DNA of 64,000 bases from Desulfonauticus submarinus (lineage in GTDB: Bacteria > Desulfobacterota > Desulfovibrionia > Desulfovibrionales > Desulfonatronovibrionaceae): NCBI RefSeq assembly GCF_900104045.1, contig NZ_FNIN01000007.1, forward strand, positions 30,632 to 94,631, in the 5' to 3' direction. The notes under the pieces are model-generated. The model worked only from the letters and a program-made list of their open reading frames with translations, was not told where the DNA came from and ran no database searches. Position 1 is the first letter of the stretch, and each line of letters starts with the position of its first letter. Positions 58,143 to 64,000 of this stretch are shown here, piece by piece. The translations under genes and the position numbers were made by a program.

Positions 58143-58213
58143 GGTTGACGTCTAAGCTAAGCTGCTGACATGAGCGCAGCGAAATGGCGGCCTGGTGCAC
58201 CCTTTTGTTAGCC
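58143..58213 (-). repeat. attC site 1 (end of array)
   Basis: R'' GGCTAAC (58213-58207) provides the stop codon of the Phd-like gene. R' is GTCAACC (58149-58143), one base off the GTTRRRY consensus, which may mark a decayed last site. Shares an 18-base block (AAATGGCGGCCTGGTGCA on +) with the IS-split site 5. Confidence 0.85.
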
Positions 58214-58435
58214 TTTCTTTTCTCTACTTTCTCTTATAATATCAACAATTTCTGATGTAGATACACCTAGATTAATCCCAGGAACATCTAAAGGTGAGCG
58301 CTTTTCAATAAGAGGTTTTATTACAAATACTTGGCCATCTTTTCGTTTTACTAATACTTCTCCTTCAGTTGCAGCCTGTTCCAAAATCTTTGCAAATTTT
58401 TGACGGGCTTCTGAATATGTATATAACGCTCCCAT
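58208..58435 (-). CDS. Phd/YefM-type antitoxin
   Basis: 75 residues. YTYSEARQKFAKILEQAATEGEVLVKRKDG is the Phd fold pattern; the C-terminal part would wrap the toxin. The start lies two bases from the toxin stop, so they are coupled. The stop codon TAA is formed by the attC R'' box. Order is toxin first, which is unusual for Phd/VapB systems. Confidence 0.85.
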   Translation of the reverse strand: MGALYTYSEARQKFAKILEQAATEGEVLVKRKDGQVFVIKPLIEKRSPLDVPGINLGVSTSEIVDIIRESREKKG

Positions 58436-58436
58436 A

Positions 58437-58832
58437 TTATTTTACCTCAATTACTTCTATTGATAATGTCTTTGCTACATTTAATAATTTCTTATCTAAA
58501 GTTATAAGTGGAGAATTATACTTCTGACAACATCTTAATAAATAAGCATCATAACAATACATATTTGTTTCTTTAGCTATCTTGAGAGATTTTTCTAATT
58601 CAACATCTACAAATCTTATTGGAATTTTTTTAAATATAGCAAGAGCTTTATTCACTTCCTTAAAATATGCTTTTCCCCTACGAAACATTGCGGAAAAAGC
58701 GTTGCCAATCTCCCAATATACAGAACTTGGAGTCAATAAAGTTGTTCCTTCTGTAATTTTTACAATTTTCTGTTTTTCTGGTTCGTTAGCAATTACAGCT
58801 ATAATAACCGATGTATCAACTACAACTTTCAC
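58437..58832 (-). CDS. PIN-domain toxin (VapC type)
   Basis: 131 residues, GTG start with AAGG upstream. PIN acidic residues are in VVVDTSVIIAVIANEPE (Asp6), SVYWEIGNAF (Glu), MYCYDAYLLRC (Asp) and LITLDKKLL (Asp). VapC toxins are Mg-dependent ribonucleases cutting tRNA or rRNA. It has its own promoter within the cassette and is followed by the antitoxin. Confidence 0.9.
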   Translation of the reverse strand: MKVVVDTSVIIAVIANEPEKQKIVKITEGTTLLTPSSVYWEIGNAFSAMFRRGKAYFKEVNKALAIFKKIPIRFVDVELEKSLKIAKETNMYCYDAYLLRCCQKYNSPLITLDKKLLNVAKTLSIEVIEVK

Positions 58833-59719: not shown

Positions 59720-59914
59720 TTATTCTTCTATTACTTCCATAAGTGCCTTTACTATTTTGGGATGTAATGTTTTGCCCTTGTGAAACGGCAAAATAAATCT
59801 TTCTTTATCTTTTCGATAAATTTTATGACTCCCCTTAGTCCTCACATGTTCAAATCCAGCTTTTAGGAGCATTCTTTCAGCTTCTTCAGCTATTAATCGT
59901 GGTAACTTAGGCAA
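59720..59914 (-). CDS. hicA: HicA-type toxin
   Basis: 64 residues. KAGFEHVRTKGSHKIYRK contains the catalytic His of the double-stranded RNA-binding-like HicA fold; ILPFHKGKTLHPKIVKALM follows. HicA is an mRNA interferase. It overlaps the HicB gene by eight bases and stops just before attC 3. Antitoxin-first order differs from the classic hicAB operon. Confidence 0.93.
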   Translation of the reverse strand: MPKLPRLIAEEAERMLLKAGFEHVRTKGSHKIYRKDKERFILPFHKGKTLHPKIVKALMEVIEE

Positions 59915-60125
59915 CTTTAACCTCCATAGAGGTCGTCAATATCTCCTTGCTCAGACAATACACTCTTTCATCTGGGGGTAGAGTTTCTAAATAAAGTTCT
60001 ATAGCCTCTTTTATATTCTCAAGCACTTCTTCAAGAGAATCCCCCTCGGTATGGCAACCTTTCAATTCAGGACAAAAAGCATAATACCCATACTCATCTT
60101 TCTCTATTATAATATTTACTTTCAT
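59907..60125 (-). CDS. hicB: HicB-type antitoxin
   Basis: 72 residues, GGAG eight bases before its ATG. The degraded RNase H-like HicB fold is shown by YYAFCPELKGCHTEGDSLEEV. No DNA-binding tail is visible after LSKEILTTSMEVKVA, so autoregulation by this protein is uncertain. Confidence 0.92.
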   Translation of the reverse strand: MKVNIIIEKDEYGYYAFCPELKGCHTEGDSLEEVLENIKEAIELYLETLPPDERVYCLSKEILTTSMEVKVA

Positions 60126-60793: not shown

Positions 60794-60861
60794 GGCTAAC
60801 GTCTAGGGTCACTTGCCGACAAGACGCAAGGCCGAAGGGAGTAGCGAAATGGCGGCCTGGT
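60794..60861 (-). repeat. attC site 5, R' half, split by IS
   Basis: R' GTTAGCC (60800-60794) and the arms TGTCGGCAAGTGACCC and AGGCCGCCATTTCGC are intact, but the R'' box is not here; instead the sequence runs into the IS end at about 60862. The rest lies at 62217-62229. Confidence 0.9.
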
Positions 60862-60868
60862 GCAGACC

Positions 60869-60882
60869 TTATGCTAAAAAGT
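60869..60882 (+). repeat. Left subterminal inverted repeat of IS
   Basis: TTATGCTAAAAAGT; pairs with the complement of 62201-62213 (one base shorter). Confidence 0.8.
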
Positions 60883-60955
60883 AGTTTACGATTCCAAGCC
60901 TGCCAACATATAACACTAGGGTTGACCTTAAACCTCATATACCAGGAGATAACTT

Positions 60956-61955
60956 ATGAAACAACATAAATATATTAGAAAAACTTCTTTTAAAGGTAAA
61001 GACTTTTTCATTGGAATTGATGTGCATAAAAAAGCTTGGTATATCTCTATTAGACATAATGGACTTCTTATTAAATTTTTTGCTATGGACCCTGTGCCTG
61101 AGATTTTAGTTAATTCCTTAAATAAAAACTATCCTAACGCTAATTTCTTTATGGCCTATGAAACTGGGAGATTTGGGTTTTGGATATATAGAAAATTTAA
61201 AAAACTAGGTGTTAAATGTATGGTGGTAAATCCTGCTGATATACCTTCTACTCATAAAGAAAAAGATAAAAAATCTGATAAAATAGACTCTCATAAATTA
61301 GCTAGGGAGTTGGAAAATAATAACCTTAACCCTATATATGTGCCGCCTCCAGAGTCTCAACACTTAAGATCTTTGGTGAGATTATATCTAAATTACACTA
61401 AAAATATCACTAGAACCAAAAACCAGATTAAAAGTTTTTTGGATTACAATGGCATTACATTACCAAAACATACATCTTCCTGGTCTAATAATTTTATTAA
61501 CTATCTATATTCCATAACAATTGATAATAGACCAGGAGATAAGACCTTATATAAATAACTCTCATTTTAAAGAGACCTTTGATCTTCTAAGAACAGTTAC
61601 AGGAATAGGCTCTAAAATAGGTTTTATCATCTTGTCAGAAATTATAGACATGAAAAGATTTAAAAACTTTGATCAATTAAAATCATATGTGGGACTTACT
61701 CCTTCAGTATATTCTTCAGGAAATACCCATTATGAATATGGCCTTAGCCTTAGAAAGAATTCCAGATTAAAATATGCATTAATAGAGGCCTCATGGGTTG
61801 CAATTAGAAAAGACCCAGCACTACTAGAGAGTTATAATAAATTAATAACCAGAATGAAGAAACAACAAGCTATAATTAGAATATCCAAAAAGCTTTTATC
61901 TAGAATAAGATATGTATTAAATAAACAACCTTATGTAACAGGTATAGTAGAATAA
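60956..61955 (+). pseudogene. IS110-family transposase, frameshifted
   Basis: First part (60956-61558) has the DEDD RuvC-like domain: FIGIDVHKKAW (Asp), MAYETGRFG (Glu) and KSDKIDSHKLAREL (two Asp). The second part (61521-61955, other frame) has LLRTVTGIGSKIG and the Ser-containing TPSVYSSGNTHYEYGLSL of the C-terminal domain. Frames differ, and the linking coiled-coil region usually 30-40 residues longer is missing between GDKTLYK and SHFKETF. So it carries a small deletion plus frameshift near 61545. CCAGGAGA precedes the ATG. Probably inactive; sequencing error is an alternative. Confidence 0.85.
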
Positions 61956-61974
61956 ATTAATGCATTCAAAGCTT

Positions 61975-62110
61975 GGCAGACCGCAAACAATCGGATGCGA
62001 GAGAATTTTATACCTCTCGCTAAGGTGCAGACTGCGGCTGCCATTAAAATGTCTTAATTCTACGTCATGCAGTAGGGTAAAATCCCTAACTGTTAATAAT
62101 AGCTTGCAGA
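61975..62110 (+). ncRNA. Candidate bridge RNA / seekRNA of the IS
   Basis: Outer stem GGCAG(A)CCGCA (61975-61985) with TGCGGCTGCC (62033-62042); inner hairpin GCGAGAG (61997-62003) with CTCTCGC (62014-62020); between them internal-loop strands AACAATCGGAT and TAAGGTGCAGAC. The 3' strand contains GGTGCAGAC (62024-62032), identical to the left junction 60859-60867. The 5' strand contains AACAA, present in the attC R'' side. A second hairpin CAGTAGGG/CCCTAACTG follows, and its 3' flank has ATAATAG (62096-62102), identical to the right IS end (62210-62216). This is the layout of target and donor loops. Confidence 0.6.
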
Positions 62111-62200
62111 AATATTTATTCTATTACTCCTTATAAATTAAAAAGGAGTGAGATCCATGCTTTAGCAAAATTTTTTCAAAAAAACTTACTCGCTAGATTG

Positions 62201-62213
62201 ACTTTTTACATAA
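62201..62213 (-). repeat. Right subterminal inverted repeat of IS
   Basis: Reads TTATGTAAAAAGT on the - strand. Confidence 0.8.
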
Positions 62214-62216
62214 TAG

Positions 62217-62229
62217 TGCTTTGTTAGCG
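62217..62229 (-). repeat. attC site 5, R'' half
   Basis: CGCTAACAAAGCA (62229-62217). Its TAA is the stop codon of the hydrolase gene. The first base C departs from the RYYYAAC pattern and from the expected complement of that cassette's core. Confidence 0.8.
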
Positions 62230-63399: not shown

Positions 63400-63455
63400 T
63401 AACGCTAAGGTCAGCGGCGAGCGAGTAGCGAGTCCGCTGGACCGCCTTGTTAGAT
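63397..63455 (-). repeat. attC site 6
   Basis: R'' ATCTAAC (63455-63449), R' GTTAATG (63403-63397), arms GGTCCAGCGGACTCGC and GCGAGCCGCTGACC-like in between. R'' is the complement of the core GTTAGAT at the window edge. Confidence 0.93.
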
Positions 63456-63784
63456 TACTTTATTATTTCTATAATTCTATTTATTACTTCTTGCAGCTTA
63501 TGAATTTTCAAACTACCTATTTTATATAAAATTATATCTTTATCTGCTGTAAATATTTTATTAGGTCTTATATTACTTTCTTGTCTTAAGCCTCCTGCTG
63601 CAAAGTCATCATCTTTTAGGTCTATTGCATACTTATCTTTTATATTTTTACTTGTTATTTGACACAAAATTAAATCATATCCTTCTAAATTTGAAATTAT
63701 TAATGCTGGTCTTCTTTTGCTTCCGCTTAAATCAGAAAAAGGAAAAGGAATAACCACTACATCTCCTTTTATAAATTTTTCCAT
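63455..63784 (-). CDS. PemK/MazF-type toxin
   Basis: 109 residues. GDVVVIPFPFSDLSGSKRRPALIIS is the MazF/PemK signature; ICLCQIT-like strand LILCQITSK follows. Sequence-specific mRNA endonuclease of a toxin-antitoxin pair. It overlaps the upstream antitoxin gene by 16 bases; its stop touches attC 6. Confidence 0.92.
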   Translation of the reverse strand: MEKFIKGDVVVIPFPFSDLSGSKRRPALIISNLEGYDLILCQITSKNIKDKYAIDLKDDDFAAGGLRQESNIRPNKIFTADKDIILYKIGSLKIHKLQEVINRIIEIIK

Positions 63785-63969
63785 GCTTCATCTTCCTCTG
63801 GAAGAAGCCAATCTTTTGATAGAGATTGCTCACTTAAATATAGGGTTTCTTTTCTTTGAGCTTTTAATTGCAAATATTCTATAAAATCCATTAGTTCTTT
63901 TTTATATATCAATGGTAGTTCTCGTATTTTTTCTAATAATTTTTCTTCATCTCGAAGTTCTACTTCCAT
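63769..63969 (-). CDS. Antitoxin partner of PemK-like toxin (DUF2281-like)
   Basis: 66 residues, AGGAG nine bases before ATG. The sequence LLEKIRELPLIYKKELMDFIEYL resembles DUF2281 proteins, which often precede MazF/PemK or PIN toxins. Tail LPEEDEAWKNL is probably the toxin-binding part. No DNA-binding domain is evident. Confidence 0.75.
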   Translation of the reverse strand: MEVELRDEEKLLEKIRELPLIYKKELMDFIEYLQLKAQRKETLYLSEQSLSKDWLLPEEDEAWKNL

Positions 63970-63992
63970 TTTTTGTTTTCTCCTTTTTATTA

Positions 63993-64000
63993 ATCTAACG
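63993..64000 (-). repeat. Edge of attC site 7
   Basis: CGTTAGAT (64000-63993) is the R' end of a further attC that continues past the window, so the array extends to the right. Confidence 0.75.

Follow-up and report, generated by a model that had tools for sequence, protein, structure and literature searches.

Guided insertion by IS1111 elements has been published, including for two elements that target integron attC sites, ISKpn4 and ISPst6 (PMC11187229, in the sections cited here). In those sections, the seekRNAs of ISEc11, ISPa11, ISKpn4 and ISPst6 lie in the 3' non-coding part of the element, and IS1111 seekRNAs place a complement of the top strand 5' of a match to the bottom strand; both the location and the order are the same in the element described below. 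The IS110/IS621 bridge RNA has a target loop, a donor loop and a short common core, again as here, and the cited sections of the same paper (PMC11208160) give the RNA at the right end as the rule for IS1111 too and predict the donor-binding nucleotides of IS1111 bridge RNAs by inspection. Judging by titles, this is apparently the only paper on topic in the literature searched for bridge RNA with integron insertion sequences or with IS1111. An 82-nt seekRNA suffices for ISEc11, with no donor loop described in the sections cited (PMC11187229), whereas the present family has a second loop, which co-changes with the ends of the IS. In contrast to the IS1111 bridge RNAs as predicted in the cited part of PMC11208160, target and donor guides were here permutation-tested jointly, within one IS1111-type clade. 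The principle of RNA-guided insertion is already published; new are the lineage, the position within attC and the joint co-change of target and donor guides in an IS1111-type clade.

The window, that is, the whole 64,000-nt stretch of Desulfonauticus submarinus DNA that was analysed, contains one IS1111-type element of ~1.35 kb (core to core 60863-62216), which sits within an integron attC. The RNA predicted from its 3' non-coding end very probably acted as a bridge RNA, with loop 1 for the attC halves and loop 2 for the joined ends of the element. The element, its broken transposase, the attC context and a predicted two-loop fold with compensatory changes are read from the window and its relatives; family-wide, loop 1 of the predicted RNA matches and co-changes with the flanks, and loop 2 with the IS ends. 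Such an RNA would extend RNA-guided IS1111 insertion in attC to several phyla beyond the published proteobacterial examples.

The element and the interrupted attC

On the left, the element begins with a core CAG (60863-60865, + strand) that is common to target and donor, its register being taken from the guide/flank tests below. The left IS end follows (60866-60882, +) and contains the subterminal inverted repeat TTATGCTAAAAAGT at 60869-60882; similar sequences are present in the related loci L003-L008. The right IS end is ACTTTTTACATAA plus core TAG (62201-62216, +; core at 62214-62216), and its complement is TTATGTAAAAAGT, one base shorter than TTATGCTAAAAAGT. Apart from this extra base, the pair has the form of the perfect or near-perfect subterminal inverted repeats of 11-13 bp found in IS1111. 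If the IS counts both core copies, the terminal extensions are CAGACC (6) on the left and TAG (3) on the right, against an IS1111 norm of 7 or 6 and 3 bp; the attC spacing suggests that one of the two core copies belongs to the target.

The transposase has the DEDD and C-terminal Transposase_20 domains of IS1111, split across two frames. The N-terminal DEDD part (60956-61558, +; PF01548, E=2.8e-15) occupies a 200-aa frame that ends early, and the C-terminal Transposase_20 part (61539-61955, +; PF02371, E=5.1e-21) lies in a different frame with ~71 nt missing upstream. The break is an internal deletion of ~71 nt near 61540, by arithmetic against P0004 and L008. Between the stop codon and the end of the right core are 261 nt, matching the long non-coding stretch that IS1111 elements carry 3' of the transposase gene. 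The two Pfam domains, the inverted repeats and this 261-nt region agree with the first-pass annotation, which had called an IS1111-type element from the sequence. DNA, protein and RNA-model searches of the 2.1-Mb genome returned no second copy. Because the transposase is disrupted and a second copy was not found, the window copy is likely no longer able to move.

The interrupted site, attC5, has its left half at 60794-60862 (GGCTAACG...GGCCTGGTG) and its right half at 62217-62228 (TGCTTTGTTAGC), in an array whose cassettes are read on the - strand. With the core counted once, restored attC5 has the form GTG + 7 nt + TTGTTA, which is the same in attC1, attC2, attC3, attC7 and attC8; attC4 and attC6 are without the GTG form. 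The earlier proposal of an insertion within attC is upheld by the presence of both halves and by a spacing that matches five other attC. Further attC sites lie in the window at about 58.2, 59.0, 59.7, 60.2 and 63.4 kb. A simple attC finder recovered six of the eight listed sites; attC1 and the split attC5 were missed and read by eye. On inspection by eye, the additional sites that it reported (three in the window and two in each of L127 and L131) were taken to be false, and a second match of an attC-like pattern (C13) was set aside as looking, by eye, like protein-coding sequence.

An integron integrase is encoded on contig C11 (TIGR02249, 400 bits against a cut-off of 265). The cassette array likely continues there, because the window closes with 600 bases (63401-64000, the contig end) that are identical to the first 600 of C11. 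They also occur on C1 near 487248, and this exact 600-base repeat in three places probably broke the assembly. A search of two same-genus genomes, G001 and G002, for an uninterrupted attC5 found the right-hand flank absent from both, and the transposase is absent from them too. With a single copy and no empty site, no insertion event is seen. The 1.35-kb split of L' from R' would render attC5 inactive and lock the two adjoining cassettes together. Cassette locking in arrays through attC splitting by such elements thereby becomes testable. Three cassettes of the array (58208-58832, 59720-60125 and 63455-63969, - strand) resemble toxin-antitoxin pairs, namely Phd/YefM with PIN, HicA/HicB-like, and PemK/MazF-like with a DUF2281-like partner (below the Pfam cut-off).

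The predicted RNA and its two loops

The predicted bridge RNA or seekRNA lies at 61965-62126. It was found with R1, a covariance model derived from 18 relatives, the window being left out, at 59.3 bits (E=2.1e-11), and over the 2.1-Mb genome this region is the only credible match (next E=0.17). The RNA is on the + strand, the same as the transposase, and not on the - strand for which the guides had initially been read. Folding supports the stem/internal loop/hairpin that had been proposed: the 74-nt structure has -31 kcal/mol (z = -4.54) and the 175-nt region z = -3.28, with none of 200 shuffles equally stable in either case. In an alignment fitted to the structure in question, two-sided changes are seen in 18 of 21 base pairs, and 95.7% of cells are paired, a share that falls to 25.6-48.0% on sliding and to 72.1% on shuffling; a MAFFT alignment of the 18 model elements has two-sided changes in 12 of 21 pairs. 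Compensatory base changes among related copies, on which the first-pass annotation had staked its reading, are thus present in both alignments. R1 matched 22 of 29 loci outside the model at E < 0.005. Among these 29 it had no match in L019, L025, L039, L066 and L154, nor in L003 and L008, whose contigs stop short of the RNA region. The model and the compensatory changes together point to a conserved structured RNA within the element, as in bridge RNA and seekRNA systems. Rfam at its gathering threshold gave nothing for the RNA region and one tRNA elsewhere in the window. A second, weaker R1 match (38.5 bits) is present in L055 (2285-2391, - strand), on the opposite strand to the main one.

A scan of genome contigs yielded 476 relatives, and the analysis retained the best 80. 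Twenty-six of these loci, picked by readable anchors, make up a set of 27 elements together with the window; anchors and register were read by eye ahead of the permutation tests. All share one layout: a stem, a 5' guide, a hairpin, a 3' guide and the closing stem, followed by another stem-loop. The register consists of a left target (4 nt), a core NAG and a right target (8 nt), and, for the donor, the right end, the core and the left end. The 5' strand of loop 1 is complementary to the right flank, and its 3' strand is identical to the left flank.

Right guides match their own flanks at 126 of 176 positions in 22 of the 27 elements (L011, L017, L045, L055 and L065 lack a usable right flank), compared with 74.0 +/- 6.4 in permuted pairs (0/100,000 as high). 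Left guides, outside the core, match at 57 of 76 positions in 19 of the 27, the left-end pattern having found nothing in the other eight (permuted 23.2 +/- 4.4; 0/100,000). Both signals are lost, or nearly so, in shifted registers, and the right one is also lost in non-complementary readings; a weak excess persists for the right guide at shift +5 (80 vs 72.3; 710/20,000) and +6 (81 vs 74.6; 1,459/20,000). Eleven further elements gave 75 of 88 right-guide matches (permuted 47.2 +/- 4.2; 0/100,000), with an offset range widened to 13-19 and two flank starts, equally for the permuted pairs. They derive from 14 other R1-positive loci, looked over before testing, without L018, L076 and L077, which lie at contig ends, and L060, whose right end went unrecognised, and with L163 added; L161, L162 and L165-L171 were left out as the motif scan missed their RNA, and L160 and L164 repeat L004 and L012. 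The right end of L015 was misread by rule in this test and in the right-end donor test, and was kept as a miss. An earlier guide test by longest common substring (101 vs 77.6 +/- 4.6, n=20, 0/20,000) mis-anchored L014, L040 and L041 and was replaced. In the seven attC-inserted elements alone, own pairings score 38 against a mean of 28.0 (as high in 38 of 5,040 permutations), a test that mostly separates two subgroups. The earlier reading would have been undermined by related copies keeping the same loops at non-attC sites; instead, the guides change with the target. Matching of loop 1 to both target strands, as in bridge RNAs and seekRNAs, is therefore found family-wide, with 4/4 on the left and 4/8 on the right in the window.

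Loop 2 behaves in the same manner towards the IS ends. For the three bases past the core of the left IS end, 48 of 54 match (n=18; permuted 24.7 +/- 3.3; 0/100,000), and over eight bases 82 of 144 (permuted 57.8 +/- 3.3; 0/100,000); among six other registers only +3 retains an excess (47 vs 40.5; 192/20,000). This test covers 18 of the 27 elements, without the eight lacking a found left end and without L021. At the right IS end, 71 of 72 match (n=36; permuted 54.1 +/- 2.2; 0/100,000), in a test that samples only ends of restricted form because the patterns that find them are narrow (CATAA[CT] for the first set). At the two bases tested, eight elements differ from the usual form, and in seven of them, the window included, loop and end have co-changed. 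In the window, the donor guide for the left IS end (62058-62065, +; complement ACGTAGAA vs ACCTTATG) matches at 3/8, including 2/3 of the bases adjoining the core. The donor guide for the right IS end, ATAATAG (62096-62102, +), is identical to 62210-62216 (7/7) and co-changes in the family; the identity had been noticed in the first pass, and ATAATAG is a donor guide rather than a target guide. A second loop matching both donor ends, the other feature of bridge RNAs, is thus found family-wide. These natural sequences, in which the target and donor guide pairs of an IS1111-type clade both vary together with the DNA that they match, also supply guide/target pairs for programmable insertion.

A mechanism consistent with these data would have the RNA transcribed and processed from the element's 3' non-coding end. 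Its loop 1 would pair with both halves of the attC target and its loop 2 with the joined ends of the element, which would pass through a circular intermediate; the transposase would carry out this RNA-DNA pairing, and strand exchange would occur within the 3-nt core NAG.

Fit of the window's guides to its own site

Taken by itself, the window is weak evidence; the argument rests on the family. Its left-target guide GGTG plus core CAG (62024-62030, +) matches the left flank and core at 4/4 and 3/3. The identity first noticed, GGTGCAGAC, does occur both at 60859-60867 and in the 3' strand of the internal loop (62024-62032); only GGTG and the core CAG can be target, the final AC being IS-end sequence. 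The right-target guide ACAATCGG (61987-61994, +; complement CCGATTGT), which adjoins the core complement ATG (61995-61997, +), matches its own flank TGCTTTGT at 4/8. The AACAA previously pointed out is indeed in the 5' loop strand; the match spans only the attC-constant TTGT, and the other four right-guide bases are mismatched. Compared with eight attC sites, its own included, the window's right guide fits attC7 on C11 best (7/8, with 3/3 core and 4/4 left), and the guides of L005, L007 and L040 match the window's right flank at 6/8, above its own 4/8. The mismatch would reflect either tolerance of mismatches or drift after inactivation.

The present guide may not have chosen attC5: the element could have entered a fitting attC elsewhere, or its guide differed or has drifted. 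This is a real possibility, to which we give the lesser weight. The 7/8 fit at attC7 in the same genome speaks for it, as do the disrupted transposase, which may leave the guide free to drift, and the known mobility of cassettes within arrays. Left guide and core, however, match exactly, and open-frame elements tolerate mismatches too (L009 4/8, L005 2/8). IntI cuts attC within R', and the four unmatched bases adjoin the IS; they would stay in place if IntI swapped DNA beyond the R' cut. Because the right guide fits its own site poorly and attC7 better, guidance of the insertion by this RNA is likely as regards the copy's ancestor, and no more than a possibility for the present sequence.

Recognition of the folded attC hairpin by shape, with the loop matches secondary, is very unlikely. 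As this explanation expects, attC is palindromic, and by eye so are several further targets, among them terminator-like palindromes and a REP-like repeat, but the guides change with the flanking bases in a register- and strand-specific way, and a reprogrammed seekRNA with matching donor flanks redirected ISEc11 (PMC11187229, in the sections cited). Least probable of all is chance matching inside a conserved non-coding RNA: the window's target signal is small alone (an exact GGTG is 1 in 256, right 4/8 about 11%), but the family-wide tests place its matched bases where other elements match.

Relatives and their insertion sites

Among the best 80 of 476 relatives, the nearest elements in a tree of N-terminal transposases come from Desulfohalobiaceae MAGs. 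The tree served solely to identify the nearest kin of the window and the two attC clades, and the branch of L008, which is frameshifted, is an artefact. The N-terminal piece shares 89% identity, across 59% of its length, with a partial Desulfothermus okinawensis protein. At E <= 0.001, R1 matches occur in 3 of 395 genomes of the window's own phylum (its own genome included) and in 8 of 296 genomes of the phylum of G105 (G105 included). Of the plasmid records, 283 contain a transposase relative, none at >= 60% identity.

By eye, the same attC position is occupied in L005 and L006 (Dehalococcoidia), in L008 (left half only) and in L010 (Spirochaetales, both halves). L005 and L006 are identical at 881 of 904 bases by position and sit in two different attC sites. 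The left half in L113 is attC-like but shortened. The left flank of L003, the element nearest to the window, is not recognisably attC, and by eye neither are those of L004 and L007. In a second clade (L012, L016, L021 and L041; Ignavibacteriota, Bacteroidota), the insertion point in attC lies, by eye, six bases further away from R'. Judged by eye, attC insertions of the lineage extend to at least five phyla.

An IS1111-attC group of IS1111-type elements in attC sites is said to have been defined by Tetu and Holmes in 2008 and by Post and Hall in 2009, and the window element shares the attC insertion. As suggested in the first pass, it would be a candidate member of this group; the sole comparator, the putative member L154, is a distant relative at the other attC end. 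L154 is a plasmid-borne IS110-family element of Klebsiella pneumoniae, in the arr-3 attC next to qacEdelta1; its transposase is 33% identical to that of the window, it has other end sequences, and it is without an R1 match. Its position, by eye, is the TAAC (R'') end of that attC, whereas the window element lies between L' and R'.

A broader reading, which we hold tentatively, at a little short of even confidence, is that an IS1111-type lineage in several phyla hunts integron cassette arrays by means of a two-loop bridge RNA able to read the constant TTGT, the L' arm and a few cassette-specific bases. It would cut between L' and R', unlike L154, would use two different attC positions, in two clades, and would be re-aimed by guide change to REP-like or terminator-like palindromes.

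The flanks of L046, L050, L024 and L040 are, by eye, terminator-like or other palindromes rather than attC. In L004 (1720-1740), the insertion lies in a palindromic repeat that we take to be REP-like, and the right guide matches the flank at 7/8.
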